From Roseimicrobium sp. ORNL1 (lineage in GTDB: Bacteria > Verrucomicrobiota > Verrucomicrobiia > Verrucomicrobiales > Verrucomicrobiaceae), in NCBI RefSeq assembly GCF_011044495.1, contig NZ_CP049143.1, positions 6,386,001-6,450,000 of the forward strand: a stretch of 64,000 bases of DNA, written 5' to 3'. Both the position numbers and the translations under genes were made by a program. The notes under the pieces were generated by a model. The model saw only the letters and a list, made by a program, of their open reading frames with translations. It was not told the origin of the DNA and did no database searches. The stretch's first letter is position 1; each line of letters starts with the position of its first letter. Below are positions 10,318 through 28,827 of the stretch, piece after piece.

Positions 10318-10740
10318 ATGAAATACAATCCTATCCTTCGTTCCAAGAAAGCTGCTGGCTTCACCCTCATCGAAATCAGCTTGGTCATCGCCCTGCTCCT
10401 TGGCCTCATCGCCGTGGTGTTCATTGGTCTCGGTTCCTACCGTGAAGGTTCGAACAAGGCCCAGTGCAAAATGCAGCTGGCCGCCGTTCAAAAGGCAGTC
10501 CGCTCCTATGCCAACATGAACAACATCGTGATCGACGCCGCTGGCACGATTCCGGACACCTATCTGGAAGACGGCACCATCATGGCGGTCAAGCCCGTCT
10601 GCCCCTCCGGTGGCACCTACGCCTACAAGGCCCTGGCTCCTGCCGTTGGCATCCCCTATGCTGACTGCAGCTACGACGGCGGCGCTGTCGCTACCAACAC
10701 CCACGTCCTGACCGGTACCACCGGCATCGCTGACTGGTAA
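10318..10740 (+). CDS. Type IV prepilin-like protein (candidate major pilin)
   Basis: A 140-aa class III signal protein: short basic leader (MKYNPILRSKKAAG), then the prepilin peptidase site G/FTLIE with Glu at mature position 5, and a hydrophobic helix SLVIALLLGLIAVV. The C-terminal part has three cysteines (KAQCKMQ, VCPSG, YADCSYD), so a disulfide is possible. I start at ATG 10318, next to the basic leader; a GTG at 10297 adds seven residues. It opens the plus-strand pilus run behind a long AT-rich leader, and its codon-rich, Gly/Ala/Thr composition fits a highly expressed pilin. Prepilin peptidase is not in the window. Confidence 0.88.
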   Translation: MKYNPILRSKKAAGFTLIEISLVIALLLGLIAVVFIGLGSYREGSNKAQCKMQLAAVQKAVRSYANMNNIVIDAAGTIPDTYLEDGTIMAVKPVCPSGGTYAYKALAPAVGIPYADCSYDGGAVATNTHVLTGTTGIADW

Positions 10741-10795
10741 ATAGCAGCGTCGTTTCCGGCCTTTCGCGGTATCAATCTCACCCTTCCAACTTCCC

Positions 10796-12682
10796 GTGTC
10801 TGTCATTACCGATCCGTACGATTTGAAGCCTGCCGACGTCTATCGTCAGGCTCGTACTGTCGCTGCAAAGACCAGCCGTGGAACGGATGGGAACTGGTAC
10901 CGCGATCCTGGAGACATCGCATGTCAATGGCATATCTGGTTCGACGGGGGCAGGGAGGTATGTTCTGCCACCTTCTCCCGTTCGGACAACTGCTGGCGGC
11001 AGGGCCCTCCCCTGCCGCTGGCCAGTCTCACCACGGGGGATGACATCCAGTCCTTCCTGGGAGACCTCATGTCCCCCACCTACTTCGGCCACAAGCCTAG
11101 GGCCTTGGGCGTCATCCTTCATGTCGCCGACGAGTTCTCCCTCGCAGAAGTGGCCTCAGGCCCAGAGATTGCAGGAGAGACCGCCGACGACCTCAATGTG
11201 CTGAGGTACAACCTTGTCGACTCGCCCAAGGATTTCCTGGCTGACCGTGATGTATCGGTCGATACCATTTCCTGGCGATTGCTTCCCTTCTGGGGTGCAC
11301 CCGGCGGCCAGACTCGATACACAGCTGTTTCTCTTCCCCGGTCCCGCGAAACGTTCCTCGGCAAACTGGTGGAAGGTGGCGAAGAATGGCGCATCCCGGT
11401 CCGGGTGGCCGTGACCAGCGCGCCCATGGAGGCCCTGGCATCCTTGGCCCTCCTCAAGCCTGAACTCCGAGGGGGCGGCTTGATTGCATTCCCTTATTTG
11501 AAATACACCGCCGTCTTCGCCCTGAATGCGAGTGGCGAACTCCGTTCCGCGCGCAGCCTTGCCCACCGAGGAGGCAATCCACTTCCTTCCAGCTTCGGGG
11601 ACATCTTGTGGAACATGGGTGTGGCCGCTGAGCTCATCACCAACGATGGAGCCGGGCAGTTGCTGCCGAATGTCGTCATCATTTCACCCAACTCCGCAGT
11701 TCTCAACGAAGCCGTTAGAGACTTGGAGGCTTATTCCCTGAAACGTCAGCGCATCGTCACTCACGCGCTGGACCTCAGCAGCCACCCCACTACGGGCAGC
11801 CTTCCAGGCAACCGCCCGGAATTCCTGCCCTATGATGCCGGCGCCGCCTCGCAGGTGGGCTCAGGATCGCTTTCCAAATCGGAGACCTTCCGGTCTCTCT
11901 GGGATGGCTGGGCCACTCAAAACTTCTTCAACACCGCGAAGATCGACACCCAGTATCCCACTCTGGCCGATCTTCGCCTCCTTCGCTTTTCTTCGTGGTT
12001 CGTCGGATTGCTGGGAATCTCGCTCGTTGCCATGGCCGGATACGGCATTTATGGCTTGTTTACCGCGATGCGTCACCCCTCTTGGGAACTCACTGAGGCA
12101 CAGGTCTCCGCCACCAAGGCCAAGCACGAGAAGCTCTTCGTTGAAGAAAAGCAGATTGATGTCACTGACCTGTTGATGAAGCCTCGCTCCCAAGGCTGGA
12201 CAACGCTTGAGTTGATCATGCAATTGTTCCCTGAGGACGCAGGGGTCCGTCTTGAAGATTTCGGCTACGAAGTCAAACCCGTCACTGCTACAGTACCGGC
12301 GGGACCCAGACCAAAAGCCGCCCCTGGAACCAAGCCTGCCGGTCCCCAGACGTTTGGCATTACACGCGAGTGGACTTTCAAGGGCTTGGCAAAGCCCAAG
12401 GCGCTTGATCTCCTGAACAACCTCAACAGCCAGCGAGGTCTTACCGCGCTCTTCGACCAGGTGTTCAAGGCGACCAATGATTCAAGCCTTGCTCCCGATC
12501 CCTCCCGCCAGGTCCGCCTCGTTCTCACCCAAAACACCAATCCGAGATTCGATGTGAAAGCGTCCGCGGGTGAAGCAGCCAAAGACCCTTCCCTGACTTT
12601 CCCCTACGCGTTCGAGGCCGTCATCTCGCAGACCCTTACAGAAAAGGATCCCCTCGCACTCCCCACCGGGAAGCCCTTCTGA
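10796..12682 (+). CDS. PilM/PilN-like (GspL-like) inner-membrane assembly protein
   Basis: A 628-aa protein beginning at GTG. The first 390 residues look like a cytoplasmic actin-like domain, weakly conserved. A single membrane segment follows at about residues 398-422 (SSWFVGLLGISLVAMAGYGI), then a coiled region and a PilN/GspL-like periplasmic part with a Pro/Ala linker (PAGPRPKAAPGTKPAGP) at about 505. The arrangement equals PilM fused to PilN, or GspL, which bridge the assembly ATPase to the periplasmic alignment complex. The assignment rests on architecture and position before PilO-, PilP- and PilQ-like genes; no motif is decisive. Confidence 0.62.
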   Translation: MSVITDPYDLKPADVYRQARTVAAKTSRGTDGNWYRDPGDIACQWHIWFDGGREVCSATFSRSDNCWRQGPPLPLASLTTGDDIQSFLGDLMSPTYFGHKPRALGVILHVADEFSLAEVASGPEIAGETADDLNVLRYNLVDSPKDFLADRDVSVDTISWRLLPFWGAPGGQTRYTAVSLPRSRETFLGKLVEGGEEWRIPVRVAVTSAPMEALASLALLKPELRGGGLIAFPYLKYTAVFALNASGELRSARSLAHRGGNPLPSSFGDILWNMGVAAELITNDGAGQLLPNVVIISPNSAVLNEAVRDLEAYSLKRQRIVTHALDLSSHPTTGSLPGNRPEFLPYDAGAASQVGSGSLSKSETFRSLWDGWATQNFFNTAKIDTQYPTLADLRLLRFSSWFVGLLGISLVAMAGYGIYGLFTAMRHPSWELTEAQVSATKAKHEKLFVEEKQIDVTDLLMKPRSQGWTTLELIMQLFPEDAGVRLEDFGYEVKPVTATVPAGPRPKAAPGTKPAGPQTFGITREWTFKGLAKPKALDLLNNLNSQRGLTALFDQVFKATNDSSLAPDPSRQVRLVLTQNTNPRFDVKASAGEAAKDPSLTFPYAFEAVISQTLTEKDPLALPTGKPF

Positions 12683-12686
12683 TCCA

Positions 12687-13250
12687 ATGAGCGCTTACAC
12701 CAAGCCCATTCTCCGATTTGGACTCATGGTCCCGGCGATTTTCAACGCCATGATTCTCGGCGGCGTTGTTGCCGGCGTTTCCAAGCTCTCCGCGATCCGT
12801 GCAGAAAAGGAAAAGCGGTATGACGAGCAGACGAAACGCCTGGCCGCGATGAAACAGCTCGAAGCCAAAATCGCCCCCAAGCGCAAGCTCTTTGAAGAGC
12901 AGAAGAAGATTCTTACCTCGGACCCCGGCCAGATCATGACCAAAGGGCTCGACGCTTCTCTTCCGAAGTACACGGAGCTCGAACTGGCAAGAACCAGCCT
13001 GATTTTCCCACAAGACCGTGGCCGCCTTGGCCGCCTGATGCAGTGCGACATCAGCAAGGTCAAGTGCACCTTCAAGGGTGGCATTGGCCCCATGCAGGAG
13101 ACACTGCTCCAGATTGAATCGCTCATGCCGCACGCCTTTTTGGAAGAAATCAAAGTCAGCCGCAAGAGTGATCTGATGCTGAAGCGGCCGGATCACCTGG
13201 AGATTGAAACCACACACGCTTGCTGGAAGGCCGGGGAGGAAAAGCCGTGA
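12687..13250 (+). CDS. PilO/GspM-like alignment protein
   Basis: A 187-aa protein with a short cytoplasmic start, one membrane segment (residues 10-30, FGLMVPAIFNAMILGGVVAG), then a charged coiled-coil (AEKEKRYDEQTKRLAAMKQLEAK, residues about 39-60) and a small alpha/beta domain. That layout is PilO/GspM-like. PilO proteins pair with PilN in the periplasm to align the inner-membrane platform with the secretin. It starts 4 bp after the PilM/N-like gene and overlaps the next start by four bases (GTGA), indicating translational coupling. Confidence 0.6.
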   Translation: MSAYTKPILRFGLMVPAIFNAMILGGVVAGVSKLSAIRAEKEKRYDEQTKRLAAMKQLEAKIAPKRKLFEEQKKILTSDPGQIMTKGLDASLPKYTELELARTSLIFPQDRGRLGRLMQCDISKVKCTFKGGIGPMQETLLQIESLMPHAFLEEIKVSRKSDLMLKRPDHLEIETTHACWKAGEEKP

Positions 13251-13852
13251 AAACCTTGTCGTCATTGTTGATTCTCACCCTGGCAGCCGCTGCTGTCGCA
13301 AATGGGGCTCCCCCGGCGAAGGCCCCGTCCGGTCCCGTCAAGAAAGCGCCATTTGTGGGCAACGAGGCTGGCTGGCTTCCCAGAGTGAAGTGCCTGCCCA
13401 GTGCCGCGGACGTTGACGCCGCTGCGCAAAAGCTGAGTTCGCGGACACGGGCGGTCGATCCCTTCAGCGTCGCCACGTTTCCTCGTGAAGATGACAAACC
13501 TCAGACGGATGAAAACGAGAACCGTCCGACCCTTCGCATCACGCTGAATCAAGCGCTGCAGACGTTGAAGCTCAACGGGATCAATCTCACCCAGAAGGAA
13601 TTCCTCATTGGCGGGCGCAACGTGTACGAGGGCGACGTCGTTGAGCTCTCCTACAAGAATGAAATCTTCCAGGCTCTCTGCGTCGAAATCAACGCAACGG
13701 AGATCGTCTTTCGGGACCTGCAACGGGGTGATGTCGGGATCATGCCACATAACATGATTCCCAAGCTCCCACTCGAACCCATGCGCAAAGTGGCCTCCTC
13801 CCTAGAGCCGCGCTGGGCTCCCATGGAACCGGCAACACCTCCCAAGAAATGA
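13247..13852 (+). CDS. PilP/GspC-like periplasmic protein
   Basis: A 201-aa secreted protein. The GTG start overlaps the previous stop as GTGA and has a strong GGGGAGGA box 6 bp upstream; the frame extends to 13220 but loses the signal peptide. After the signal (LSSLLILTLAAAAVANG) come a low-complexity linker and a small beta domain around residues 100-175 with YEGDVVELSYKNEIF and EIVFRDLQRGD, similar in shape to the PilP/GspC homology region that contacts the secretin N0 domain. It ends four bases into the secretin gene (ATGA). Function is inferred from shape and gene order. Confidence 0.6.
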   Translation: MKTLSSLLILTLAAAAVANGAPPAKAPSGPVKKAPFVGNEAGWLPRVKCLPSAADVDAAAQKLSSRTRAVDPFSVATFPREDDKPQTDENENRPTLRITLNQALQTLKLNGINLTQKEFLIGGRNVYEGDVVELSYKNEIFQALCVEINATEIVFRDLQRGDVGIMPHNMIPKLPLEPMRKVASSLEPRWAPMEPATPPKK

Positions 13853-15918
13853 ATCTTCCTCTCACCATCTCCCTCAACCTGCTGGTCTGCTCCCTAACTG
13901 CCCTGCAGGGGCAGTCGGACCTGCCCCTGCCTCTCCCTGCGCCAAACTCTCTTCTCGCCCTGCAACAGCCGGATGGTACCAAGCCTCTGGCTGGCCCCAT
14001 GCTGGTGCAAAATTCAAGCCCCGTTGCCGACCCTGGAGCTGGAGCGAGAGCAGGCTCGGATATCACTCCTGTGCCGGCGGATGCTCCCACCCCGGCGCCC
14101 GCCGCTGAGGGTTCGAGTTCCACTCCGATGCTGGCCGCCGCCAACCCTGGCCTTGAAAATCCGGCAGCCACTCCCCTTCCCACCCTGCCCTCCGAGGGTT
14201 ATTGGGTGGACGGAGCTCCCATCAATGACGTCATGCAGTACCTGTGCCGCAAAGCCGGCTACCAGTACTTTTTCAACAATGAGCTGAACGGCCCGGAGCA
14301 CATCGTCACCGGCCACCTGCAGCTTGATGATCCGGAGCGTCAGATTGAAGACCTCGCCGTCGCCTTTGGACTTGCTGTCTACCGCCAGGCGAAGACGCTC
14401 TATGTCATGAATGACCAGCAGCTCTCGCGCCTGCCGCTGGAAATCATGAGCTATCAGCTCAAGTACCTGCGTGGCTCCAGCCCCAGCCGCGTATCCGCAC
14501 AATCTTCCGCCGAAGCTGGTGGCGGTGGCGGTGCGTCAGGAGGCATGGCCGACTTCGAAAAGCTCAAGCTCATCATTCGCCCCCTGCTCACCAAGACTGT
14601 GGGTCAGATCGAGTTCGAGGAAAAGACCAACACGCTGCTCGTCACGGACAACAGCGTGAAAATTAAGCGCATCAAGGATCTCCTGGAAAAGATCGACCGC
14701 CCCAAACAGCAAATTGCTGTGAATGTCCGCGTGCTGCGCGTCATCAACAACAAGGGCAAGAAACTCGGCGTCGACTGGTCCACTACCTTGGGTGAAGGCC
14801 TCTCCGTCACCGCGAGCCAGAGCTTGAATGCCATGTTCAACCTGCCGGAAACGAGCACGCTGACCAAGGCAAGCTCCAGCATCCGGGAATTCACCAACGG
14901 ATTCAGCAATACGTCGATAGCGAGCGGAGCGACGGGAACGCCCACCACCACCACGTTCGAGAATACCACCACTGCGACTGGCAGTACCACCGACTCCAAT
15001 AGCAGAGACACCGCCAGCCTCTATGACAACGGTCCTGGCCTGATCTTCGCTCCCCTTCAGATTAATGCCATCATCCGCGCTCTGGAGGAAAACGGCATCG
15101 TTTCGCAGGAATCCTGCCCGACGATCATCACGGAAGACAACGAACAGGGCCTCATCTCCATCGTGGATCGCTTCCCCATCCTCACCTCGACCATCACCGA
15201 GACGACGGCTGGGCAGAACATCACTGAAGAACTCCGCTACAAGATCGACGACGCCGATCCGGACCCCATGGATAATCCGGAAAAGAGCCGCGAAATCGGT
15301 GTGACCCTTTCCGTGACTCCCACACTGCTGCCAGATGGTACCGTCCGCATGAAGCTGCGCCCCCGCGTTGCCAAGATTGTGGAATTCATCACCGGTCAGA
15401 CACAAAACATCTACCCCCGTGTGAGTGAATCCACTGCGGAAGCAATCAGCCGTATCCCAAGTGGACAGTCCCTCATCCTTGGTGGATTCTACGACTACAA
15501 TGACCGCAAGAATGGCAACAACGTTCCGCTTCTTGGCAAGGTTCCCGGCTTGGGCTGGCTCTTCAAGTCCAAGGACAACACCATGGAGAAGGTGAGCCTG
15601 ATCTTTGTCATCACCCCGAGCGTCTATGACGCCTCCAACCCCAACGCCATTCGTGGCATGAACCAGGAAATGCGGACTTACTCGAACTTCGAAGCTGCCC
15701 GGTTGGATGCGATGAGCGAGCGTTTCCTCCCTCCGCTTCCCGTGGACGGCCCGCCCGCCGCCTACCAGACCCGGGAGACGGTGAAGACACAGACGGTCTC
15801 CAAGCCCTCCGGTGCTCTTCCTGCTGAAGGCTCCGCCCAGCAGTCCGAACAGCCCAAGAAGAAGTCCTTCTTCGGTCGCATCTTCAACAAGAATTCAAGC
15901 GCAGCAACCTCCCCCTAA
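13849..15918 (+). CDS. Type IV pilus / type II secretion secretin
   Basis: A 689-aa outer-membrane channel of the PilQ/GspD family. After the signal peptide come a Pro/Ala-rich spacer, an STN-like N domain (PINDVMQYLCRKAGYQYFF, about residue 125), an N1-like domain ending in LLVTDNSVKIKRIKDLLEKI (family-typical), and a secretin domain at about residues 405-590 containing LQINAIIRALEENG, EIGVTLSVTPTLLPDG and IPSGQSLILGGFYD. An inserted Thr/Ser/Gly-rich segment at about 345-385 and a Lys-rich C-terminal tail are unusual. Translation is coupled to the PilP-like gene. Confidence 0.92.
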   Translation: MNLPLTISLNLLVCSLTALQGQSDLPLPLPAPNSLLALQQPDGTKPLAGPMLVQNSSPVADPGAGARAGSDITPVPADAPTPAPAAEGSSSTPMLAAANPGLENPAATPLPTLPSEGYWVDGAPINDVMQYLCRKAGYQYFFNNELNGPEHIVTGHLQLDDPERQIEDLAVAFGLAVYRQAKTLYVMNDQQLSRLPLEIMSYQLKYLRGSSPSRVSAQSSAEAGGGGGASGGMADFEKLKLIIRPLLTKTVGQIEFEEKTNTLLVTDNSVKIKRIKDLLEKIDRPKQQIAVNVRVLRVINNKGKKLGVDWSTTLGEGLSVTASQSLNAMFNLPETSTLTKASSSIREFTNGFSNTSIASGATGTPTTTTFENTTTATGSTTDSNSRDTASLYDNGPGLIFAPLQINAIIRALEENGIVSQESCPTIITEDNEQGLISIVDRFPILTSTITETTAGQNITEELRYKIDDADPDPMDNPEKSREIGVTLSVTPTLLPDGTVRMKLRPRVAKIVEFITGQTQNIYPRVSESTAEAISRIPSGQSLILGGFYDYNDRKNGNNVPLLGKVPGLGWLFKSKDNTMEKVSLIFVITPSVYDASNPNAIRGMNQEMRTYSNFEAARLDAMSERFLPPLPVDGPPAAYQTRETVKTQTVSKPSGALPAEGSAQQSEQPKKKSFFGRIFNKNSSAATSP

Positions 15919-15932
15919 GCCGACAATCTCCC

Positions 15933-16550
15933 ATGTTCGCGCCCAAGGTCACAGATACAATCACTGGCATTTCATTCCTGCCGCCGGAGCCGTCGTCAGG
16001 ATTGATGGCGGCGATCAATGTGCTGGAATCCATCGCAGCATGCTCAGTGAATCATCTGCAGCAGGGCGGTTACATGTCGGACACAGAGATCCACGGTCTG
16101 CTGCAGAGCTATCATGTGCATCTTACGAGTGGCGGTTCCCTGCCTGCCTGTCGTGACTTCCTTGCCTTCACCGCTCTGCACCAGGCGAGGAAGCATGCCG
16201 TGACCCCGGAAGGCGAGGTGTCCCGCATGCAGCGCGTGCTGCGCCAGAGGCTGCACGATGAGGTCCACTACTGGAGCGTTGGCATGATGCCGGGACGGCC
16301 CAATTCCCTCTACGAATCCTGCCCCTCGCTCCGCGTGGCCTGTTCGCTCCTCGGGTGCCCCGCAGTCCTCTCCGGCGATGACAGCATCGTGCATGTCGCC
16401 TCACTGAATCCCGTCTCCGCTCTTGTTGCCTCCGCGTGGATTCGCCACGAGATCACGCACGCCGGCAAGCAGGATCCGCCCTTTGTCTTCCCCTTCATCG
16501 TGGACCTCGCCACCTGGGAGTCTCTCCAGCAGCGCCACTTCTCCGCATGA
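15933..16550 (+). CDS. Unknown protein of the pilus locus
   Basis: A 205-aa soluble-looking protein with no signal peptide or membrane segment, lying between the secretin and PilB genes. It is rich in His, Ser and Cys, with segments HLQQGGYMSDTEIHGLLQSY and HDEVHYWSVGMMPG. I do not recognise a family. The stop overlaps the PilB start (ATGA), so the two are translationally coupled, which argues for a cytoplasmic partner or regulator of the ATPase. Confidence 0.75.
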   Translation: MFAPKVTDTITGISFLPPEPSSGLMAAINVLESIAACSVNHLQQGGYMSDTEIHGLLQSYHVHLTSGGSLPACRDFLAFTALHQARKHAVTPEGEVSRMQRVLRQRLHDEVHYWSVGMMPGRPNSLYESCPSLRVACSLLGCPAVLSGDDSIVHVASLNPVSALVASAWIRHEITHAGKQDPPFVFPFIVDLATWESLQQRHFSA

Positions 16551-18238
16551 ACCTGAATCTCGGCATCGAATTCAACGAGACCATCCAGGCACTGGTTCTG
16601 GAGGAGCTTCGAAAGGTTTCCCCTTCCGACATGACGCTTTCGGATGAGGCGCTCATTCGCAAGTCCTCCAAAGCGCGCATCCTCGGCGCCGTGGGCAAGG
16701 CATCCGGTCTGGCCGCCTTCCCGCATGTGAAGGAGCTCGTGGACTCAGAGCTGGTGAGCTACTGTGACCCGGCCGCCCTCTCTCGCGGTTTGTTTGTGCC
16801 GTTGCGCCGCAGTTCCGAGCAGATCCTGCTCGCAGTGGCCAATCCCTGGGACTATCGCGCGGACGACTACTGCTCCGTACGCTTCCCGGATGAGGAAATC
16901 CTCAAGGTGGTCACGCTGCCGGCGGAGATTTCCAGCGTTATCGAAGGCTCCTCTTCCTCCGCTGGCCCCAGCCGCGAAGACCTCGAAGCACTGGAGGTCG
17001 ATGAGTTCTCCCTGGACGTTCCGGACTTTGACGTGACACGTCAGTACGACGAACCCATTGCCCAGCTCGTTGCCAGCATGGTGTCCGACGCCATCAAGCA
17101 GCATGCCTCGGACATTCACATCAAGACGGAGAAGACCAGCATCGCCTATTCCTTCCGTGTGGACGGAGACATTGGTCCGAAAATTGAAATGCCGGTGAAG
17201 CTGAAGGATCGCATCGACGCCTTCCTGCTGAACCTCATGCGTCTGCCCCCAGAAGACCGCAGCAAGCGCCCCGGCATCTCCGGTCGCTTCACCGCGAGCT
17301 ACTACGGGCGCTCCGTTGGTGTGCGCTATGAGCGCCACCGCACCTATCGTGGTTATCACGTCACCATGCGTCTTCTGGACAAGACGCACTTGGAAGCCCG
17401 CCTCGGCATGGGCACCCTGGCCTTCGATGAAGGTACGCTTTTCGAACTGGACAAGGCCATGGCAGTGCCCTCGGGCATCATCGTGATGTCGGGCCCCACC
17501 GGCTCCGGTAAATCCACCACGCTCAACGCCATGCTGCGTGAGTTGAACCGGCCCGAGGACAACATCCTCACGCTGGAAAACCCGGTGGAAGATGAAATTC
17601 CCGGCGTTACGCACTGTGACCTTCGCGATTCCTCGGAATTCAAGCCGATGATCACGAGCTTCATGCGTTCTGACCCGGACATCATCCTCATGGGTGAGGT
17701 GCGCGACCGTGAGTCTGCCGAGCTCGCCATCGAAGCAGCCATCACCGGTCACAAGGTGCTGACCACCATTCACACCCCTCGTGCTTCACAGATCATCGAG
17801 CGATTTGAACAGTTGGGAATGGAGCGCTGGAAGATTGCCCAGACGCTGAAGGCCGCCTGTGCCCAGCGTCTCGTGAAGCTGCTCTGCCCCTCCTGCCGCA
17901 TCAAGCTGGACGGTGTGCCAGAGAGAGAGCGTCGCCTCTTCCATATGGAAGACTTCTGGGCAACCCAGCCTGTTTTCGAGCACAGCAAGGATGGTTGCCA
18001 GGAGTGCAAAGGAAGAGGCTACTCAGGTCGAACCGCAATCCTCGAAATTCTCCCCATCAGTCCCAAAGTGGGTGACAAGCTTGCCAAGGGCGAGATCACT
18101 CCATACGAACTGGAGCACGAAATCCGGCGGGAATACGGTCTTCCTTCTCTCCGAGATAACGGTTTCAAACTTCTCCAGGCGGGACGCACTGACCTCGATG
18201 CGCTCAGAAAGGTGCTGGACCTCACCTACGACTGCTGA
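16547..18238 (+). CDS. pilB: PilB/GspE-family assembly ATPase
   Basis: A 563-aa secretion ATPase. An N-terminal MshEN-like region (1-150) is followed by the N2 domain with SDIHIKTEKTSIAYSFRVDG and the ATPase core: Walker A GPTGSGKST (about residue 321), Asp box, Walker B DIILMGEVRD, and His box TTIHTPRAS. A zinc tetracysteine pair, CPSC and CQEC, lies near residues 449 and 485, as in GspE/PilB extension ATPases, followed by GYSGRTAILEIL. It powers pilin addition at the inner membrane. A longer frame from 16436 only overlaps the previous gene; ATG 16547 forms an ATGA junction. Confidence 0.94.
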   Translation: MNLNLGIEFNETIQALVLEELRKVSPSDMTLSDEALIRKSSKARILGAVGKASGLAAFPHVKELVDSELVSYCDPAALSRGLFVPLRRSSEQILLAVANPWDYRADDYCSVRFPDEEILKVVTLPAEISSVIEGSSSSAGPSREDLEALEVDEFSLDVPDFDVTRQYDEPIAQLVASMVSDAIKQHASDIHIKTEKTSIAYSFRVDGDIGPKIEMPVKLKDRIDAFLLNLMRLPPEDRSKRPGISGRFTASYYGRSVGVRYERHRTYRGYHVTMRLLDKTHLEARLGMGTLAFDEGTLFELDKAMAVPSGIIVMSGPTGSGKSTTLNAMLRELNRPEDNILTLENPVEDEIPGVTHCDLRDSSEFKPMITSFMRSDPDIILMGEVRDRESAELAIEAAITGHKVLTTIHTPRASQIIERFEQLGMERWKIAQTLKAACAQRLVKLLCPSCRIKLDGVPERERRLFHMEDFWATQPVFEHSKDGCQECKGRGYSGRTAILEILPISPKVGDKLAKGEITPYELEHEIRREYGLPSLRDNGFKLLQAGRTDLDALRKVLDLTYDC

Positions 18239-18243
18239 TTTCC

Positions 18244-19461: not shown

Positions 19462-19475
19462 CAATTCACTCCGCG

Positions 19476-20009: not shown

Positions 20010-20422
20010 AGTTGATCCGTCCCCTCGCCCGCCCACGGTCTAGAGCCCATGGTTTCACCCTGATCGAGATTAGCCTCGTCATCGGTCTCATGCTGGGACT
20101 CATTACCCTCGGCGGATTCAGCTACGCAATGGTCCGGGATTGGAACAAGGCCAAGAATGCTTCACTCGCCCTCCAGGCAGTGTATTCCGCCCAGCGCAGC
20201 TACATGGCAGACAATCCCACAGCAGATATCACGGAGATCGACGCCGCCACCTTGATCCCCTACCTTCCCACCGGCTGGACGGAGATGCCAACCGCGACAA
20301 GCTTGACTGATACGGCGCTCACTCTGGATTTCCAAGTGATGCCCCCAGTCTTTCGGTCCTCTGGGGCGGCGTATGACCCTTCCAAAAGCACGAAGGATGG
20401 TCTGTGGGACATTGGCGGCTAG
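20006..20422 (+). CDS. Second type IV prepilin-like protein
   Basis: A 138-aa protein with a basic leader (MKLIRPLARPRSRAHG), the processing site G/FTLIE, and the helix SLVIGLMLGLITLGG; the site and helix closely resemble those of the candidate major pilin at 10318. The mature domain lacks cysteines and contains many Thr and Pro. It is probably a minor pilin of the same filament. ATGA overlap with the preceding gene indicates coupling. Confidence 0.85.
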   Translation: MKLIRPLARPRSRAHGFTLIEISLVIGLMLGLITLGGFSYAMVRDWNKAKNASLALQAVYSAQRSYMADNPTADITEIDAATLIPYLPTGWTEMPTATSLTDTALTLDFQVMPPVFRSSGAAYDPSKSTKDGLWDIGG

Positions 20423-20447
20423 TGCTGCCCGATAGCATTTCTTATCC

Positions 20448-21134
20448 ATGGAGTCCTCCCCCGCTCCCAGCATTGACGTTGAACCTGGAACAAAGTTTGG
20501 CTACCGCAGCGGCCCGTTCTGGAATAGACAACCCAAAGTCCTAGTGGACACAGAAGAGAAGGTCCACGTCGGACCCGGTCTTCACCTCTTTGTGGCGCCC
20601 AACGGCGCTGGGAAGACCACCCTGCTGCGTTCCCTCGCCGGCCTGACGAAACCCATTGCCGGCCGGCTGTCTGTAGACGGGCAGGTGCATTACTTTTCGG
20701 ATGAACTCAGGATGGATCCTGAACTGAAGCCGAGAACGCTTTTCAAGTCCATGCTGAGTGCCCATGCACGCGAGCATGCCCTGAAGCTCTCCGACACGCT
20801 GAAACTCAGCCTCACGAAGCCAATCAGCAAACTTTCCCGAGGCAACCGCCAGAAGACCATCCTCATCCTGGCCGAATCCCAATTGCAACAGGCAAACCGG
20901 AGTGTCCTTTTGATGGACGAGCCCCTTTCGGGATTGGACGCCGAAACGCGCGAACAGGTGGTGGATCTCTGGGCAAGCTCCAGCAAGCAGGTGGTCCGCT
21001 TTGTCATCATGCACGAGCTGGAAAGCGTTCACAACGCAGACAGTCTCTTCACCATCCGTTCCGGTGCTCTCCGTCATGCTGCCACCAAGACTGGCTCTTC
21101 TTGGATGGACACCTACCATGCCATGCAGAAATAA
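20448..21134 (+). CDS. ABC transporter ATP-binding protein in pilus locus (PilH-like)
   Basis: A 228-aa ABC ATPase with Walker A APNGAGKTT (about residue 52), a shortened signature LSRGNRQK in place of LSGGQ, Walker B VLLMDEPLSGLD (about 154), and the switch histidine in FVIMHELES. It forms a pair with the membrane protein that starts inside its stop codon. ABC proteins within type IV pilus loci are known as PilGHI in Myxococcus xanthus, where they are needed for pilus assembly; a similar role is inferred here. Substrate is unknown. Confidence 0.88.
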   Translation: MESSPAPSIDVEPGTKFGYRSGPFWNRQPKVLVDTEEKVHVGPGLHLFVAPNGAGKTTLLRSLAGLTKPIAGRLSVDGQVHYFSDELRMDPELKPRTLFKSMLSAHAREHALKLSDTLKLSLTKPISKLSRGNRQKTILILAESQLQQANRSVLLMDEPLSGLDAETREQVVDLWASSSKQVVRFVIMHELESVHNADSLFTIRSGALRHAATKTGSSWMDTYHAMQK

Positions 21135-21913
21135 TGACCTCAGAACGCACCTGGCCACTTTTTAGACTCAGCACTTCCGGGCTTCTCGTGCGCGGAAGCT
21201 GTTGGCTTCTGTTGCTTCTGGGAGTCCTGTTTCCGTGGCTCGCGCCGCTGGTGACTCCCTGGGAGGAGAATCCCGGCATCCTGCAGCCCGCCAGGGCGCA
21301 GGCCGCGTGGATGTTTGCCTGGCTGGCCCTGTTTACGTGGCTGCCTTTCCAAGCCGCTTCCCTGGGTCACAGGATTCGCAAGCAAGGCATGCTAGAACAT
21401 CTCCGTGCCGCAGGACATGCCCGGCTCAATCTCTGCATTCAGTTGAATGCGTCGCTCTTCCTCTGGGTGGTGGCAGTAGCGTTGCTGGCAATCATTGTCT
21501 GTTTGGGCTTTTGCATGCCCTCGTCAGCCACCGATGCCAGCAACTGGACTTGGCTCGTGCTGCAATACGCTTCGCTCTACATCCTGGCGGCCGTTCCCTT
21601 GATGATGCTCGGCGTGGCGCTGGGTACCGTCACCAATGAGATCATTGCCTTTATGATTCCGGTCAGCATTCTATTTGTGGGACTGTTCGGAGGCCTCTGG
21701 CTCGCTCCCTTTTTTGCCCAGGGCGAATCACCGCTTGGCAAGCTGTTTTGGGTTTTGATGCCTCACTACCACCTGGCGGATCTCACGCCGCGCCTGGTTT
21801 TCAAAATGGGACCGCTGCCCACTCCCTACTACTTGAGGACTGTCACCGTACTGGCCGTTGAAGGGGCCGCTTTTACCCTCCTTGGACTATGCGCTTTCCG
21901 CACACGCTCCTGA
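21134..21913 (+). CDS. ABC-type membrane protein in pilus locus (PilI-like)
   Basis: A 259-aa polytopic protein with about six hydrophobic segments, including CWLLLLLGVLFPWLAPLV, VVAVALLAIIVCLGF and IPVSILFVGLFGGLWL. The layout fits an ABC-2-type permease partner of the preceding ATPase. The start overlaps the ATPase stop (TAATG), so they are coupled; an upstream ATG at 21101 lies inside the ATPase gene. Its 3' end overlaps the next gene by 25 bp. Confidence 0.8.
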   Translation: MTSERTWPLFRLSTSGLLVRGSCWLLLLLGVLFPWLAPLVTPWEENPGILQPARAQAAWMFAWLALFTWLPFQAASLGHRIRKQGMLEHLRAAGHARLNLCIQLNASLFLWVVAVALLAIIVCLGFCMPSSATDASNWTWLVLQYASLYILAAVPLMMLGVALGTVTNEIIAFMIPVSILFVGLFGGLWLAPFFAQGESPLGKLFWVLMPHYHLADLTPRLVFKMGPLPTPYYLRTVTVLAVEGAAFTLLGLCAFRTRS

Positions 21914-22848
21914 TGGTCCTTGCCGCCGCGGTGCTCTGGGGAGTCTCGCGGTATGCAGCACCCTATCCACCCAAGACGGTAGAGGAGGTTCCCACGCTTG
22001 CCATTCCTGGCAGCGCGTTTGGGAGCTTGATCGCCCGCACCATGCGCGAGTCCCTTTATACCTATTGGCACGGAGGTGAGGCCGCCCGCGCCTTGGCGAC
22101 CAATCCTGCCAAACAGGCATCTGCTACCACCTCGTCTCCGCCACCTCCTCCCCCACCGACGCCTGGCGTCTTTTCGAGGCGCCAGTTCACTTCCAATGCG
22201 CCCGCGGCCGTACCTGCACCAGTAGAGGCCATTCTCCCAGATGAGGGGCCTGACTTACCCGCGATTGGAACCCCGGTGGATAGGGTTGCCGGTTTGTTGT
22301 TCAAGCTGGAAACTCAGCGCAGACGGAGATCGGGACCCGCAGTGCTTTCAGCAGCTCACCGCCGCTATATCCAGGCCTCCGCGGGATGGCGGTTGAGACT
22401 CGCCTACAATCTTGATCCGGGTGATCCAGCCCTCTACGAAATCCTGTACCACTATATCACCACCACCTCCCAGGATTTGGGTCAGGTTAAGGAGCGGTCC
22501 AGGATAGTGACTGAAAAGGCGCTGGCTCAGGCAAAATCCAGCCAAGGTGGCATGGCAAACGCACTGACGGGCGTAGGCGCCGCGATCAATGGCCTTAACG
22601 ATCTGATCCTTGCGGCGCAGCCGGGATTCCCCACGAAAAACGAAGTCGCCCCCCACTGGAATAACATCATCTCTCTCCAGCAGCAATTTCGTGAAACACG
22701 TGCTGCAGCCGAGCGGGAGGGATGGTGGATGAACATTCCGTTCGCCCGCCGGGTGGAAATCGACGACCACGCCCGGTTCCTCGACCGTATCGTCGTGAAG
22801 TTCCGGGACAACCTCGCCGCCAGAGGATATCTGGTCAGCCACCAATAA
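21889..22848 (+). CDS. Membrane-anchored Pro-rich protein (PilG-like by position)
   Basis: A 319-aa protein with an N-terminal membrane anchor (residues 7-22), a proline run (SPPPPPPPTPG, about 83-93) and a helical C-terminal domain from about residue 125. I do not recognise a family. It is the third gene after an ABC ATPase and permease, as in PilGHI of Myxococcus where PilG has no enzyme motif, so a PilG-like role is a positional guess. Its end overlaps the convergent PilT-like gene by 14 bp. Confidence 0.7.
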   Translation: MRFPHTLLMVLAAAVLWGVSRYAAPYPPKTVEEVPTLAIPGSAFGSLIARTMRESLYTYWHGGEAARALATNPAKQASATTSSPPPPPPPTPGVFSRRQFTSNAPAAVPAPVEAILPDEGPDLPAIGTPVDRVAGLLFKLETQRRRRSGPAVLSAAHRRYIQASAGWRLRLAYNLDPGDPALYEILYHYITTTSQDLGQVKERSRIVTEKALAQAKSSQGGMANALTGVGAAINGLNDLILAAQPGFPTKNEVAPHWNNIISLQQQFRETRAAAEREGWWMNIPFARRVEIDDHARFLDRIVVKFRDNLAARGYLVSHQ

Positions 22849-23998
22849 GATTGGTGCTGAACACCTGCTCTGAAATCTTGCCCTCGCGATACAGTTGCAT
22901 CATCGAGCTGTCCCAGCGCAGGTTGCCCTTGTAACGCAGGGCATCCGCCAGTGAGGTGGCGTTGCCATCGTAGGCTCGAATACCGGCGCCCACCGTATCA
23001 CTGGTATTCTGGAGATATTCGGTGACCAGCACTCGGCCTTGGAAACCCGTGAGCAGACCTTGGGACAACACAAAGGTCAGTGTTTCACCCAACCGATTCA
23101 ACACGCCGGGCTGTTGATCCTTGGGGAAGAACTCCAGAATACGGTCAATGGTCTTAACCGCACCACGCGTGTGCAGGGTGGAGAGAACGAAGTGACCGGT
23201 CTGAGCTGCCTCAATACAGGTCTCCATCGTTTCGCGGTCACGAATTTCCCCCAGCAGAATGATGTTGGGTGTCTTACGCAATACTTCCTTGAGGCCCGAC
23301 TGGTAGGAGAGCGTATGCTTGCCCACTTCCTGCTGCGTCACCATGGACGGCGCAGGAATCATGAGACCCGGAGTGTTGGGATCCTCCATGTCCCTGTCAT
23401 ATCGATATTCAATCGGGTCCTCCACGGTGACGACATGCTTTGAGAAGTGTCTCCGTACCCAGTCCAGCAACGCCGCCAGAGTGGTCGACTTGCCTGAACC
23501 CGTGGGACCCGTGATCAATCCCAGCCCGAAGCGGCGCTGGACGAGATCACGCAAACTGTCCGAAATCATCGGGTCGATCCCGAGAGTCTCGAGCTGTGAG
23601 ATCTTGCCGCGCAACCAACGGGTCGTGAGGCCGAGTCCAGTTTCGCTGAGGTGCATCTGCACACGCATACGAACCGGCGCACCGAGAGCACCGTTGTCGC
23701 AACTGAAGTCGATGACGCGCTTCTTGCGGATGAGCTCCCACATCTTCTCCACTGAGCCCTGGCCATCCGCGTCTGACCAGAGTTCCACATTCTGGTTCAG
23801 GAACAGCGCTTCCGCAATCTGCGCCACGGTTTCTGCCGGCATGACCCCAAACGATTCGGCAATCTCAATGCCACGATTGGTGTGCACGTAAAGCAGGCTG
23901 TTCGTACGGATCTGCACATCCGAAATCTCACGATCTGGATAGGCCGCGGCAATGAGACCCAAGAAATTATGGACGGCGGAGGACTGAAGAGCGCTCAT
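22835..23998 (-). CDS. PilT-like secretion ATPase
   Basis: A 387-aa AAA-type ATPase. Walker A GPTGSGKST (about residue 168), Asp box TVEDPIEYRYDRD, Walker B NIILLGEIRDRETME and His box STLHTRGAVKTIDRI are intact, and there is no tetracysteine zinc site, as in PilT retraction ATPases. The AIRNLIRE motif that in PilT is needed for retraction is replaced by a segment reading AGIRAYDGN, so retraction activity is uncertain. It is the last gene of the minus-strand run and converges on the plus-strand pilus operon with a 14-bp overlap. Confidence 0.9.
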   Translation of the reverse strand: MSALQSSAVHNFLGLIAAAYPDREISDVQIRTNSLLYVHTNRGIEIAESFGVMPAETVAQIAEALFLNQNVELWSDADGQGSVEKMWELIRKKRVIDFSCDNGALGAPVRMRVQMHLSETGLGLTTRWLRGKISQLETLGIDPMISDSLRDLVQRRFGLGLITGPTGSGKSTTLAALLDWVRRHFSKHVVTVEDPIEYRYDRDMEDPNTPGLMIPAPSMVTQQEVGKHTLSYQSGLKEVLRKTPNIILLGEIRDRETMETCIEAAQTGHFVLSTLHTRGAVKTIDRILEFFPKDQQPGVLNRLGETLTFVLSQGLLTGFQGRVLVTEYLQNTSDTVGAGIRAYDGNATSLADALRYKGNLRWDSSMMQLYREGKISEQVFSTNLIGG

Positions 23999-24061
23999 TA
24001 AAACAGTGTCAGGGGAGGCAGTGGATGCAGATGTCCGCGCGGTGGTCGCACGAACAGATTT

Positions 24062-26011
24062 TCAATTAATCTCTTCGATCACTACAAGCCAGTTCAACTG
24101 GTGGATGGGTGGAAGCTCTGCGGGGCTCTCAAGAGGCGTAAGATCCGCCGAAATATCATTCGTGTGCACAGTATCATCCTTGCCGGACTTCATGTCCATC
24201 GGTCTCCACGCGGAGGTACTGCCCGTCTGCAGCGAACCCATTTGGCCCTTATGCTCGAAGAGGCGATTGTTCTGGGTCGTGCCCACGCGCAATTCCGAAG
24301 CGAAAATAGACATGGGGGGATAATAACTGGCGGTGCCTGTAGGAAAACCTGCATCCGTAGGGACCGAGGGCAAGGGGTACTCGTTGAGGTCGTCCCCAAT
24401 GTAGACACGCACCGGTCCCACCAGCGAAAAGCCCTTGGTGAAGGAAGTCAGGTCCTTCCCTTTGCGAATGATGGCACACATGTCTCCCTCGGCCGGAGGG
24501 GATGACAGAGCCTTCACCGTCAAAGGATCTGCCGTGGCGTCCACGGAGATGTGCAAGCTATTGTTCGTAAGCACGGAGGCCCCTCCTTTGGAGAGAAGCC
24601 AGGCGTTCAACAATCCCGGGGAGACGGTGATGCAGGAGCGGCCAGTGCTGGTGAGTTCAGTCTGGAACGGAATGACATCGCCGCCCGTTTCCACCGCAGA
24701 CGGCCAGTTGCTGTTGCGTGTGAGTACGGTCGTCTGGGTGGTTCCTGAGGGAGTCTTATACTTGACGCGGATGGAGGTGGGTGTCTGGTCATCAAGGCTA
24801 ACCATCGCAAGTGCCTCGATCGTAACTTTGCAGTCAATCGCGCCGCTCTTGTATTGGTCCCACTTGGTAGGGGTACCCACGAACTTGTTTAGAAAAGCAG
24901 TTCCACTTGGAATCGGGTAGAAAACGACTCGCCCAGAGTTCGCGGACAATGCCACAGGCAGGATGTTGGTCTTGGCACTCGCATGCATGCTCTCACGCAC
25001 ACCCATGGCATCGAAGTCATTGTCGACCGTGGTGCCATCCAACTCCAGGGGAGCGTCCAACTCAATCGATTCACGTCCGGCAAGACGGCTGGCTCCGTGA
25101 GCGCCATTCATTTTCAGGCTGTCTGCATAGATCCCACCTTCGATCGTGATATTGGCCCCCCATGCTGTGCCACCTTCGTATTGACCAATTTCAGCAAAGG
25201 TCGCCGCTTCAATGGGAAGCTGGGACGGCACCTCGTACAGGGAGAGAATATAGTTTTTGGTGACGCCGACATCGCCCTCACCGTAACGCACGCTGAACGC
25301 CCACCAGTTCCGCTTTGCCACAAAAGGCTCGCCGGGTTTGGCATAACCAAACCTAATGTTCGGATAATCGATTTTGTTGAACTTGGGATAGCTGGTGACG
25401 CTCGCCAGCAGGCCGGCGCTTTGTTCCGCATAGACCTTCTCCGGGCTGACGACGGGGCGATTTTCATCAGCCGCTTCCAGGGCAGGAGTTGACTTCAGGA
25501 AGGGGGGTACCTTTCCAGCGAGCCCAGCTGCGGTGAAATCATCCTCGTAACTGGAGATACCAGGGGTGACTCTTCCAGCTTGGCCGCTCAGCGAAGTGAT
25601 CCAGCTTTGCACTGTTGCCGCATTATCATCACCGACGTCCGCCTGGCGCACATTGGCGCCCAGACCCATCGCCTGCTTCATGCTGGTCGAAATCGCCTCC
25701 GAAGCCGCCGCACGCTGAATGGCGTCTGCAAAAATCGCATTCCAGCTATAGGTAGTCGAATCTGCATAGTTTCCCTTCATGCAGGCCACGACCTTCGCAG
25801 GAAAGCTGGCCACCAGGGCGCGCATGAGAGCCTCCTCACGCTGATGGTAGTCGATACGAAGCTGGCTCTTCGCAGCCTGATCGCGCTTGATGAGCGAACT
25901 GCGATAGACCATCGCCAAGCTCAGAAGGAGGAAGATGCTCATGAACGTCACCATGGGCATCGCCGCAAATCCTCGAAGGGTGCGTTTGGTGGATGGGACT
26001 CGTTTTTTCAT
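24062..26011 (-). CDS. Large PilX-like pilus-associated protein
   Basis: A 649-aa protein with a basic N-terminus and one hydrophobic helix (GFAAMPMVTFMSIFLLLSLA, residues 14-33) followed by VYRSSLIKRDQAAKSQ, a layout like PilX N-terminal segments of minor pilin assembly proteins. No Glu5 prepilin site is clear. The remaining 600 residues are mostly beta-rich and extracellular in style. It overlaps the upstream GspJ-like gene by four bases (ATGA). It could be a tip-associated adhesin or scaffold; Verru_Chthon cassette protein A is a family worth comparing. Function not known. Confidence 0.7.
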   Translation of the reverse strand: MKKRVPSTKRTLRGFAAMPMVTFMSIFLLLSLAMVYRSSLIKRDQAAKSQLRIDYHQREEALMRALVASFPAKVVACMKGNYADSTTYSWNAIFADAIQRAAASEAISTSMKQAMGLGANVRQADVGDDNAATVQSWITSLSGQAGRVTPGISSYEDDFTAAGLAGKVPPFLKSTPALEAADENRPVVSPEKVYAEQSAGLLASVTSYPKFNKIDYPNIRFGYAKPGEPFVAKRNWWAFSVRYGEGDVGVTKNYILSLYEVPSQLPIEAATFAEIGQYEGGTAWGANITIEGGIYADSLKMNGAHGASRLAGRESIELDAPLELDGTTVDNDFDAMGVRESMHASAKTNILPVALSANSGRVVFYPIPSGTAFLNKFVGTPTKWDQYKSGAIDCKVTIEALAMVSLDDQTPTSIRVKYKTPSGTTQTTVLTRNSNWPSAVETGGDVIPFQTELTSTGRSCITVSPGLLNAWLLSKGGASVLTNNSLHISVDATADPLTVKALSSPPAEGDMCAIIRKGKDLTSFTKGFSLVGPVRVYIGDDLNEYPLPSVPTDAGFPTGTASYYPPMSIFASELRVGTTQNNRLFEHKGQMGSLQTGSTSAWRPMDMKSGKDDTVHTNDISADLTPLESPAELPPIHQLNWLVVIEEIN

Positions 26012-26553
26012 CGGCTGCCTCCGTAATAAGTAACCTCTTCTTGATTCGGCCCAGTGAGAGTGACTCCGAGGACGCCGGTATTACAGTGAAATGTAGCATT
26101 ACCGAGGCCTTCGCACACGGTCCATTGCGATTCGGTGCCATTGGGAAGCTTACCATAACACTTCAGCACCTTCGTGCCCGCCACAGTTTGCACTTCCACC
26201 CACAGTTCCGTGATGTCGCCATTGGCAGCCTGGCTGAAAAGACGCACGGCACCTCCATTGACCAACACTGGAGCTGCGCCACCGAGAGCAGCATCGCGGC
26301 TGGAATAGACAAAATAGTGATCGGCCGAACCAAAGATGCGTCCCACAAGGTTTCCAATCTGGGGTGCCTCCGTCGTGAGAAAGGACTGCTTCTGAAGCCA
26401 GCCCATCAGAGTGATGTGCTGCTGAAGCATGGCAATCAAAGCTACGCTCAGGGCGAGGGTGATGCTCACACCCATCGAAGTCTCCAGCAGGGTGAAACCA
26501 CCCCGCCTGAGTGACTTTCTCCACGAGAGCGGCCGTTGAAGACGAAAATTCAT
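26008..26553 (-). CDS. Minor prepilin-like protein (GspJ/PilW-like)
   Basis: A 181-aa protein with a basic leader (MNFRLQRPLSWRKSLRRG) and the site G/FTLLETSM, with Glu at mature position 5, then a hydrophobic helix. The later part is a pseudopilin-style beta domain with two or three cysteines (LKCYGKL, TVCEGLG, FHCNTG). I start at ATG 26553, next to the basic leader; longer readings extend into the upstream gene. The start overlaps the upstream stop (ATGA). Confidence 0.82.
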   Translation of the reverse strand: MNFRLQRPLSWRKSLRRGGFTLLETSMGVSITLALSVALIAMLQQHITLMGWLQKQSFLTTEAPQIGNLVGRIFGSADHYFVYSSRDAALGGAAPVLVNGGAVRLFSQAANGDITELWVEVQTVAGTKVLKCYGKLPNGTESQWTVCEGLGNATFHCNTGVLGVTLTGPNQEEVTYYGGSR

Positions 26554-27023
26554 TGTGCGCGAAGCGTGGATGAGGATTTCACATACTGATTCGAGCCGAC
26601 ATTGTACTGCACCACGGAATGCAGCCTCCATACCGCGAGAGTCACGTCCGGTTCGCTGGTATTAGCCTGGTTCACGCGATAGCGGATCAGCTTCGCCGTG
26701 ACTGGAGCGCCACCCATGATCTTCCCAATCTGGATAGTCACGGGCGCTCCGACCACGCCCCCGGAGGCGTCGGGCCACATCGAGGTCCCGGAAGCGATCT
26801 CCGCGAAGGGGACGCGGTTTGCCATCGCGGTCTCGCGCGTGAGGAGGGCATCCGTCAGCGTCTGCATGGTCGTCCAGTCATTTCCTCCGATGGCAAGCAG
26901 TGTAGCTTTCATCATCAGCAACGCCAGCAAGGTGGCGGCCCCGAGGGCGATGGACGCCTCAACCAACACGGAGCCTCGCCGGCTCGAACGCCGGCGTCCC
27001 CTCATTACATGGCGCATGTTCAT
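26550..27023 (-). CDS. Minor pilin-like protein (GspI/PilV-like) with variant processing site
   Basis: A 157-aa protein with a strongly basic leader (RGRRRSSRRG) and G/SVLVEASIALGAATLLALL: Glu5 is kept but the first mature residue is Ser rather than Phe. GspI/PilV proteins often show such variants. It lies at the start of a coupled group of three pilus-associated genes. Confidence 0.75.
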   Translation of the reverse strand: MNMRHVMRGRRRSSRRGSVLVEASIALGAATLLALLMMKATLLAIGGNDWTTMQTLTDALLTRETAMANRVPFAEIASGTSMWPDASGGVVGAPVTIQIGKIMGGAPVTAKLIRYRVNQANTSEPDVTLAVWRLHSVVQYNVGSNQYVKSSSTLRAQ

Positions 27024-27035
27024 GGTCGAAAGTGA

Positions 27036-28178
27036 TTACGGGCTTCCTTCCGCCGTGCTCAACTTGCCACGGGAGGAGATGACACGGTCCACTTCAAAGG
27101 TGACCTTCTTGAGTGTGTCCTGGCGGCGATTGTGGAATGGAGTCTCGGTAATGATCTCCATGGTATAGATCCCATCCTTGGGGGTGTAGCTGGACAATCC
27201 CGTCACACCAATGGACGCGTTCTGCGGTACCGTAGGATGGTCAGTCAGACCAGGGTTGTAGTACTTGCCATACTTGCGCTCCGTGGTTTCGATAATCGTG
27301 CCCTGGGTGCCTTTCACCCACGGGCCTGAATAGATTTGCACATACGTTTTGGAGTCCGGATACAGGTCCGAGTAGGTGAACACCAACTCGGGAATGGCAT
27401 CAATGAAGACCTGGTTGTCGGTAACACCTGTGAACTTGGCCTCGGCCACGGGCCAGACCTCGATTTTCGGTTCCGCAATGTACGTGGCTGGAATGCCATC
27501 GGCCGCGTACCGTTTCACTTTAAGCTTCCATTCTCCAACACAGTCCAGCTTGTTCGCGGGGTTGTCGAGTAAAGCGTAGAGCTCTTTATCATATCCGAAC
27601 GGAAATTTCTGGTTACCCTCGAGCACAACCGGAACGGGGGTCAGAGGGTAGGGCTGTTTCTCCGGTCTCCCACTTGCGTTTCCTAAAGGGGAATAAGTGT
27701 CAGGCCAGTAGTCCGTGCCGATGAATTCAATCTCGACCGATCTCTCCGCCGCGGCAGCTGTAGCGTCTGTGACCACCCCTGAGATCGTGACCGAAAACTT
27801 GATGGGTTCATCCACCCGCGTACGGACTACAAAGTTCGGAGTCTTCGGGTCGCCACGGAAATAAGTAGGGTCACCGGTCTCGATCGTAAAACTCGCCGCG
27901 GGCGAATAGGCCTTGATGATTTTGGTATCCAGAAGGTACTCATTGGTATCCCAAGCGGTGCCCTTCGCATACAGCTTGTACACATTTCCGCCATCCGAGA
28001 CGGGGAGGAGTGGTGTGTAAGGCCCACCGAGATCGGTCGGCAGGTAGACATGGGCCGAAATCCCGGTTCCGAGATCCTTTTCAATGACCCACGCCTTGGT
28101 CGAGGTCGTTTGTGCCATCAGGCCGCCTTGGGAAGCAGCGAGCAACAGCAGGAAAATGTTGAGCCTTATCGATTTCAT
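27036..28178 (-). CDS. Secreted protein of unknown function in the pilus locus
   Basis: A 380-aa protein with a clean signal peptide (LNIFLLLLAASQGGLMAQ) and a beta-rich body without recognised motifs. Segments such as ITGDPTYF-like strands, EIEFIGTDYWPDTYSPLG and AEAKFTGVTDNQVFIDAI suggest tandem Ig-like domains. It precedes the minor-pilin genes by 12 bp. It may be a surface or periplasmic accessory of the filament; no family is recognised. Confidence 0.72.
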   Translation of the reverse strand: MKSIRLNIFLLLLAASQGGLMAQTTSTKAWVIEKDLGTGISAHVYLPTDLGGPYTPLLPVSDGGNVYKLYAKGTAWDTNEYLLDTKIIKAYSPAASFTIETGDPTYFRGDPKTPNFVVRTRVDEPIKFSVTISGVVTDATAAAAERSVEIEFIGTDYWPDTYSPLGNASGRPEKQPYPLTPVPVVLEGNQKFPFGYDKELYALLDNPANKLDCVGEWKLKVKRYAADGIPATYIAEPKIEVWPVAEAKFTGVTDNQVFIDAIPELVFTYSDLYPDSKTYVQIYSGPWVKGTQGTIIETTERKYGKYYNPGLTDHPTVPQNASIGVTGLSSYTPKDGIYTMEIITETPFHNRRQDTLKKVTFEVDRVISSRGKLSTAEGSP

Positions 28179-28212
28179 GGATTCAGAGTGGTAGTGGTGA
28201 TGAGAATCGCGA

Positions 28213-28827
28213 CTATTTCCTAGCGGCCCCTGCCTTATTGGGGGCCTTCTCGGTCTCGGGCTCGGGCTCCAGGACAGTGATGGGATTTCCCTTCAAAAGG
28301 GCCACAAGCACGCGCGTGTCTTGGGAGAGCGCCTTCATCACGATTTTGGATTGATCGGCATCGCCGTAGACCATCTTCATCGGCACTTCCCAGCCTCCGA
28401 CCCAATCCTTATTTTTCGCGAGAAAGTCCGGCCAGGGCAGCAACGGACCTTTCGGCTTGTCGATGACGCGGTTCCGATAATTCGCCGGAAGAGCCAGTAC
28501 GGAGCCAATCGGCACTCTGGTGTAGCTGCTTCCATCGTAGAGCAGGATGCAGTCTTCGTTCGGGTCATTCTTGACCTCTTGCTCGCCCAGCGAGGGGTCT
28601 CTCGGTACGCTCTTGTACTCACCAATCGTTTTTGACGCCTGTATTTTCCTCTGAAATTCCGCCGCTGTCGTAACTTCACCCATCGGAGGCCTAAGCGAGT
28701 CGGGCCTGGCGCCCGGCGCCTGAGAATGAGCCGGTAGTGCCCCAAGAACGAAACTTGCTGCCGCCACAGCCATGGCAGTATGACCTAACTTAATCCGCAA
28801 ACGCGTGAGAGAAAGAATGGTGTACAC
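28213..28827 (-). CDS. Secreted protein of unknown function, first gene of the minus-strand pilus run
   Basis: A 204-aa protein with a signal peptide (AVAAASFVLGALPAHSQ). The start is GTG; the internal ATG at 28773 would remove the positive N-region. The mature part holds EDCILLYDGSSYTRVPIGSVLALP and a Lys/Pro/Glu-rich tail. No family is recognised. It lies 34 bp before the next secreted protein gene and behind a 293-bp intergenic region with palindromes. Confidence 0.68.
   Translation of the reverse strand: MYTILSLTRLRIKLGHTAMAVAAASFVLGALPAHSQAPGARPDSLRPPMGEVTTAAEFQRKIQASKTIGEYKSVPRDPSLGEQEVKNDPNEDCILLYDGSSYTRVPIGSVLALPANYRNRVIDKPKGPLLPWPDFLAKNKDWVGGWEVPMKMVYGDADQSKIVMKALSQDTRVLVALLKGNPITVLEPEPETEKAPNKAGAARK

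Follow-up and report, generated by a model that had tools for sequence, protein, structure and literature searches.

Within a 64,000-nt stretch of DNA from Roseimicrobium sp. ORNL1 (hereafter, the window), positions 10318–28827 were found to hold a locus of 19 genes, arranged as two facing operons. The plus strand carries a row of 13 closely packed genes (10318–22848), and the minus strand, read from 28827 to 22835, carries u204, u380, u157, u207, u649, and pilT. Five of the products resemble prepilins; further ones are a PilM-PilN fusion, proteins resembling PilO and PilP, a secretin, PilB, PilC, a PilT-like ATPase, and an ABC ATPase-permease pair, and five of the 19 proteins had no match in the libraries searched. 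Stop and start codons overlap at pilO/pilP, pilP/secretin, u205/pilB, u177/pilA2, and abcA/abcP, in agreement with the translational coupling proposed by an initial, sequence-only reading of this DNA. That reading had also named the secretin, PilB, PilC, the PilT-like ATPase, and the ABC pair, all of which gave Pfam or NCBIfam matches where it had placed them. It had further noted that a prepilin peptidase is missing from the window, and the genome's single A24_N prepilin peptidase indeed lies 1.8 Mb away.

The two prepilins predicted at the outset are both present on the plus strand, and both contain Glu5. PilA1 (10318–10740) carries the motif G/FTLIE, matches the IV_pilin_GFxxxE model and, weakly and at its N-terminus, the GspG and GspH models, and is encoded upstream of pilMN in most loci; PilA2 is encoded at 20006–20422. 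The pilins lean towards the GspG/H models. Extra tandem prepilin genes were observed upstream of pilMN at three related loci (L199, L112, and L076). The initial estimate of at least five unnameable proteins held in so far as five lack a library match, but three of the genes left unnamed look, from their sequences, like minor prepilins of the PilV/GspI (u157, 26550–27023, G/SVLVE), PilW/GspJ (u207, 26008–26553, G/FTLLE), and PilX/GspK kind (u649, 24062–26011), all on the minus strand. The u649 product is large, begins with an N-terminal GF and a hydrophobic helix, and co-occurs with pilMN; its Glu5 is missing, as it also is from GspK and PilX.

The proteins u205, u319, u380, and u204 are conserved among the relatives and matched nothing in the libraries tried (which for u205, u319, and u380 included solved structures), which bears out the view that the accessory set is a different one. 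The soluble protein u205 (15933–16550, plus strand), whose stop codon overlaps the pilB start, was kept in 60 of 61 loci; it gave no match in Pfam (43 members), in PDB sequences, or in Foldseek, the last being uninformative with a poor AlphaFold model built from two sequences (pLDDT 48). The idea, arrived at by eye, that u205 is a split-off N-terminal (MshEN-type) domain of PilB was supported neither by profile comparison nor by Pfam on the 43 members, and was rejected. The product of u319 (21889–22848, plus strand) is helical with a short hydrophobic N-terminus, and its gene is the third of the ABC unit, following abcP in the mapped loci. On the minus strand, u380 (27036–28178) is probably secreted, accompanies the minor pilins, and is a candidate tip protein, and u204 (28213–28827), small and also probably secreted, accompanies u380. 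PDB sequence searches returned nothing for u319, u380, or u649. The remaining small protein, u177 (19476–20009, plus strand), is proline-rich with an N-terminal hydrophobic segment and was found in the window's family only; L022, a MAG of the Verrucomicrobiaceae, shares its short motif RIxIIPK towards the end of the protein.

The pilMN gene (10796–12682, plus strand), detected in all 61 loci, encodes 628 residues with a single membrane segment (residues 395–414). Neither the protein alone nor a 37-member alignment matched a sequence family. A Foldseek search, performed with a poor AlphaFold model from two sequences (pLDDT 40), gave ten matches with E <1e-3, all of them actin-fold proteins and nine of them GspL or PilM; the set comprised GspL cytoplasmic domains, PilM of Thermus, Pseudomonas, and Myxococcus, and one actin-fold protein annotated without a function. 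Profile comparison (hhalign) with PilN-domain fusions of the phylum gave E 2e-4 across 94 columns within the actin-like region. Because the structure search and the profile comparison agree, assignment of the N-terminal part to PilM/GspL is supported at the level of predicted fold and sequence, and so is the fusion first proposed; the C-terminal part is assigned to PilN from its topology and predicted secondary structure. PilN-domain proteins of 450–580 residues occur elsewhere in the phylum, suggesting that fusion of PilM to PilN is widespread there rather than specific to type II secretion systems (T2SS).

The genes of the proposed PilO- and PilP-like proteins are both present on the plus strand, as tentative assignments; pilO (12687–13250; 61 matches in 61 loci) is named from its position, a single N-terminal TM segment, and a weak GspM match (E 2.6e-4), and pilP (13247–13852), with an N-terminal hydrophobic segment or signal peptide and no family match, is named from position and topology. 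PDB sequence searches gave nothing for PilMN, PilO, or PilP. The secretin that follows (13849–15918, plus strand), which would take the PilQ/GspD role, matched PF00263 (E 2e-34) and PF03958, and scored 131.8 bits against the GspD model (cut-off 351).

The assembly ATPase PilB (16547–18238, plus strand) matched PF00437 (T2SSE; E 1e-81) and contains an MshEN domain, Walker A and B motifs, and two CxxC; both Walker motifs and the zinc motifs are intact in 61 of 61 cases. The GspE and PilB models were nearly level (288.6 bits, cut-off 630, and 284.7 bits, cut-off 675.65, respectively), and the best PDB sequence match was M. xanthus PilB. Four other PilB/GspE ATPases of the genome score near the canonical cut-offs, compared with 285–289 bits for the locus PilB. 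Two tandem PilB/GspE ATPase genes, each near yet under the PilB and GspE cut-offs, were observed at G000 C1 1525779–1528682. PilC (18244–19461, plus strand), the inner-membrane platform, matched PF00482 (T2SSF; E 1e-25), with GspF as its best model (119 bits, cut-off 424), and the PilT-like ATPase (22835–23998, minus strand) matched PF00437, with pilT_fam as its best NCBIfam model (243 bits, under the cut-off of 319). Among 44 ATPases placed in a tree, the PilB proteins of the loci made up one clade (support 100/100) that is distinct from the canonical ATPases used for comparison and has a stem of 5.6 changes per site; long branches are flagged, and the tree does not fix where this clade stands relative to M. 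xanthus PilB, E. coli GspE and HofB, or the other ATPases of the genome. The locus PilT proteins likewise formed a separate, long-stemmed clade. The PilT motif AIRNLIR is missing from the locus PilT, but the same pattern also misses the other PilTs of the genome and is therefore uninformative. No locus component reached the curated cut-off of a named type IVa pilus (T4aP) or T2SS family.

The ABC ATPase gene abcA (20448–21134, plus strand; PF00005) encodes the Walker A motif NGAGKT, the signature LSRGN, and the Walker B motif MDEP; since Walker A and the LSxGN signature are intact in 37 of 37 relatives, the enzyme is probably active. The adjacent abcP (21134–21913, plus strand) encodes an ABC-2 type permease (PF12698) with several predicted TM segments.

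Loci were mapped with iterated profiles in 60 stretches around PilMN, which together with the window made 61 loci. There were 61 matches each to PilMN, PilO, PilP, and the secretin and 60 each to u205 and PilC, one locus being cut short; because the same set recurs in 60 other loci, the arrangement is not due to chance. In several families the order ABC ATPase, permease, u319, pilT, pilin, pilMN, pilO, pilP, secretin, u205, pilB, pilC, pilin is conserved, and pilT stands next to the core at almost every locus. Among 20 upstream stretches from families other than the window's, where abcA-abcP-u319-pilT-pilin-pilMN is the usual order, abcA-abcP-u319 adjoins pilT in 19, with L211 having it inverted, and follows pilC in L216. 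Family f3 carries the minor-pilin module u204-u380-u157-u207-u649 beyond the ABC unit, and in the window's family the same genes are rearranged, with the ABC unit after pilA2 and the minor-pilin operon facing it. Two f3 loci, L106 and L216, differ from their neighbors in having the ABC unit after pilC together with a same-strand minor-pilin module, and either transfer or an ancestral order is possible there.

Across the 289 genomes of the order, one search found PilMN in 102, and abcP and u649 were found in 104 and 110, respectively, with the proviso that carrier counts vary with contig breaks. PilMN and abcP were common to 99 genomes (Fisher P = 6e-67, a value that ignores shared ancestry), and PilMN and u649 to 101. 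In genus g3, at least 14 listed genomes had none of pilMN, abcP, and u649, and 16 listed genomes had all three; because presence within this genus is all-or-none, gain and loss seem to affect the block as a whole. The PilMN alignment had no match outside the order among 289 genomes drawn from the phylum. Taken together, the 60 other loci and the 20 upstream stretches revealed one conserved machine, spread across several families of the order.

The locus shares PilB, PilC, PilT, a secretin, and minor prepilins with the T4aP of Pseudomonas and Myxococcus, along with putative counterparts of PilMNOP, and as in T4aP the extension and retraction ATPases are found in one block. It differs from T4aP in that PilM and PilN are fused, PilO and PilP are unrecognizable by sequence, PilB and PilT fall into the separate clades described above, u205, u319, u380, and u204 are added, and the system is order-specific. 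A secretion-type filament is nevertheless possible, because PilO has a faint GspM signal, PilMN resembles GspL, and the pilins tend towards GspG/H. The locus would then be a divergent T2SS, in which a short pseudopilus of five pseudopilins (G, H, I, J, and K) serves the export of periplasmic enzymes via the secretin, PilT and the ABC transporter being additions. GspM is the only library match of PilO, the best models of PilC and, by a narrow margin, PilB are GspF and GspE, and one of the five prepilins is GspK-like in lacking Glu5. However, the near-equal GspE and PilB scores, the M. xanthus protein as best PDB match, and a fusion that is likely not T2SS-specific all weaken this reading, as do the missed GSP cut-offs and the integral position of the PilT-like ATPase and ABC transporter. 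No PDZ domain was matched in any locus product. In the survey of Denise et al., pilT is mandatory in the T4aP model and lost in T2SS (PMC6668835), and the fact that almost every locus keeps the PilT-like ATPase together with the core therefore favors a pilus. A T2SS is considered unlikely.

That ABC genes lie among the pilus genes of Myxococcus has been known since 1998, and their role is still poorly supported by experiment. The likeness of the M. xanthus PilGHI cluster to the present locus is one of gene context, namely an ABC ATPase, a permease, and a third gene among pilus genes, whereas the ABC unit studied here lies beside pilT in most relatives, within a block of 18–19 genes. M. xanthus PilG, H, and I were reported to be indispensable for translocating pilin across the inner membrane (PMC3724824); according to a later survey, experimental data supporting their role in ABC transport were not available (PMC6060248). 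In the Roseimicrobium locus, the permease has no NCBIfam match and a generic ABC-2 exporter annotation only, so that the pair might be a same-operon neighbor with an unrelated job, such as lipid or polysaccharide export. Given that the pair is co-inherited with hardly an exception across the order and stays adjacent in differing arrangements, this is quite improbable. Because the pair is inherited almost one-to-one with the pilus machine over many genera, an obligate role throughout the order is supported by these genomic data, and the transporter seen by the sequence-only reading as embedded among pilus genes is best regarded as a machine part.

The Akkermansia Amuc_1098-1102 system belongs to the same order (Verrucomicrobiales) and follows a similar logic, in which a secretin is combined with a PilM-like protein. 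The locus secretin scored 55 bits against the Amuc_1098 model (cut-off 750), and three members of that family above the cut-off are encoded elsewhere in the same genome (G000 C1 6037386, 6637443, and 7584715), which also encodes five other secretin-domain proteins. The two systems thus use different secretin families and coexist in Roseimicrobium. None of the 18 listed genomes in g12, a genus that is probably Akkermansia, contained the window's PilMN. That the locus is the Amuc_1098-1102 pilus-like system under a different name was rejected as hardly conceivable.

The best explanation is that the locus encodes a complete, order-specific type IV filament machine, of the retractable pilus type and with an obligate ABC transporter (probability of about 0.62). 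The original proposal, a divergent machine of T4P/T2SS-like type with an ABC transporter embedded in it, was strengthened by comparative genomics; the outcome that would have spoken against it, with all components inside ordinary T4aP or T2SS clades and every accessory gene already described, was not observed. The machine is divergent and order-specific, but the whole set is still recognizable as a type IV filament machine and, for this reason, is better seen as a variant than as a class of its own. More tentatively, and with doubt outweighing confidence, the locus might define a distinct order-specific class, in which the ABC exporter and u319 are core to assembly and coupled to the PilT-like ATPase, and u205 is a new motor cofactor.

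In the proposed mechanism of the retractable pilus machine, PilB would polymerize PilA1 and PilA2 on the PilC platform, and PilMN-O-P would align the platform with the secretin; PilMN-O-P and the secretin would span the envelope. The GspI/J/K-like trio u157, u207, and u649 probably primes and caps the filament in concert with u380 and u204, which are probably secreted; u649 is a putative tip component, and u380 and u204 may contribute to the tip as well. The PilT-like ATPase would retract the filament, which is presumably displayed as a surface pilus. The ABC-2 exporter and its partner u319 would be obligate, and by analogy with Myxococcus PilGHI most likely either help pilin to reach, or fold in, the inner membrane or export a compound that assembly requires.

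Fimbriae have been described at the prostheca tips of Verrucomicrobium spinosum, in a paper that makes no mention of pili or a secretin (PMC12283558), and it may be guessed that these are one possible output of the machine. The near one-to-one inheritance of the ABC unit and the pilus genes offers a clean comparative and genetic system, in which the long-standing question of how ABC transporters serve pili can be tested directly.
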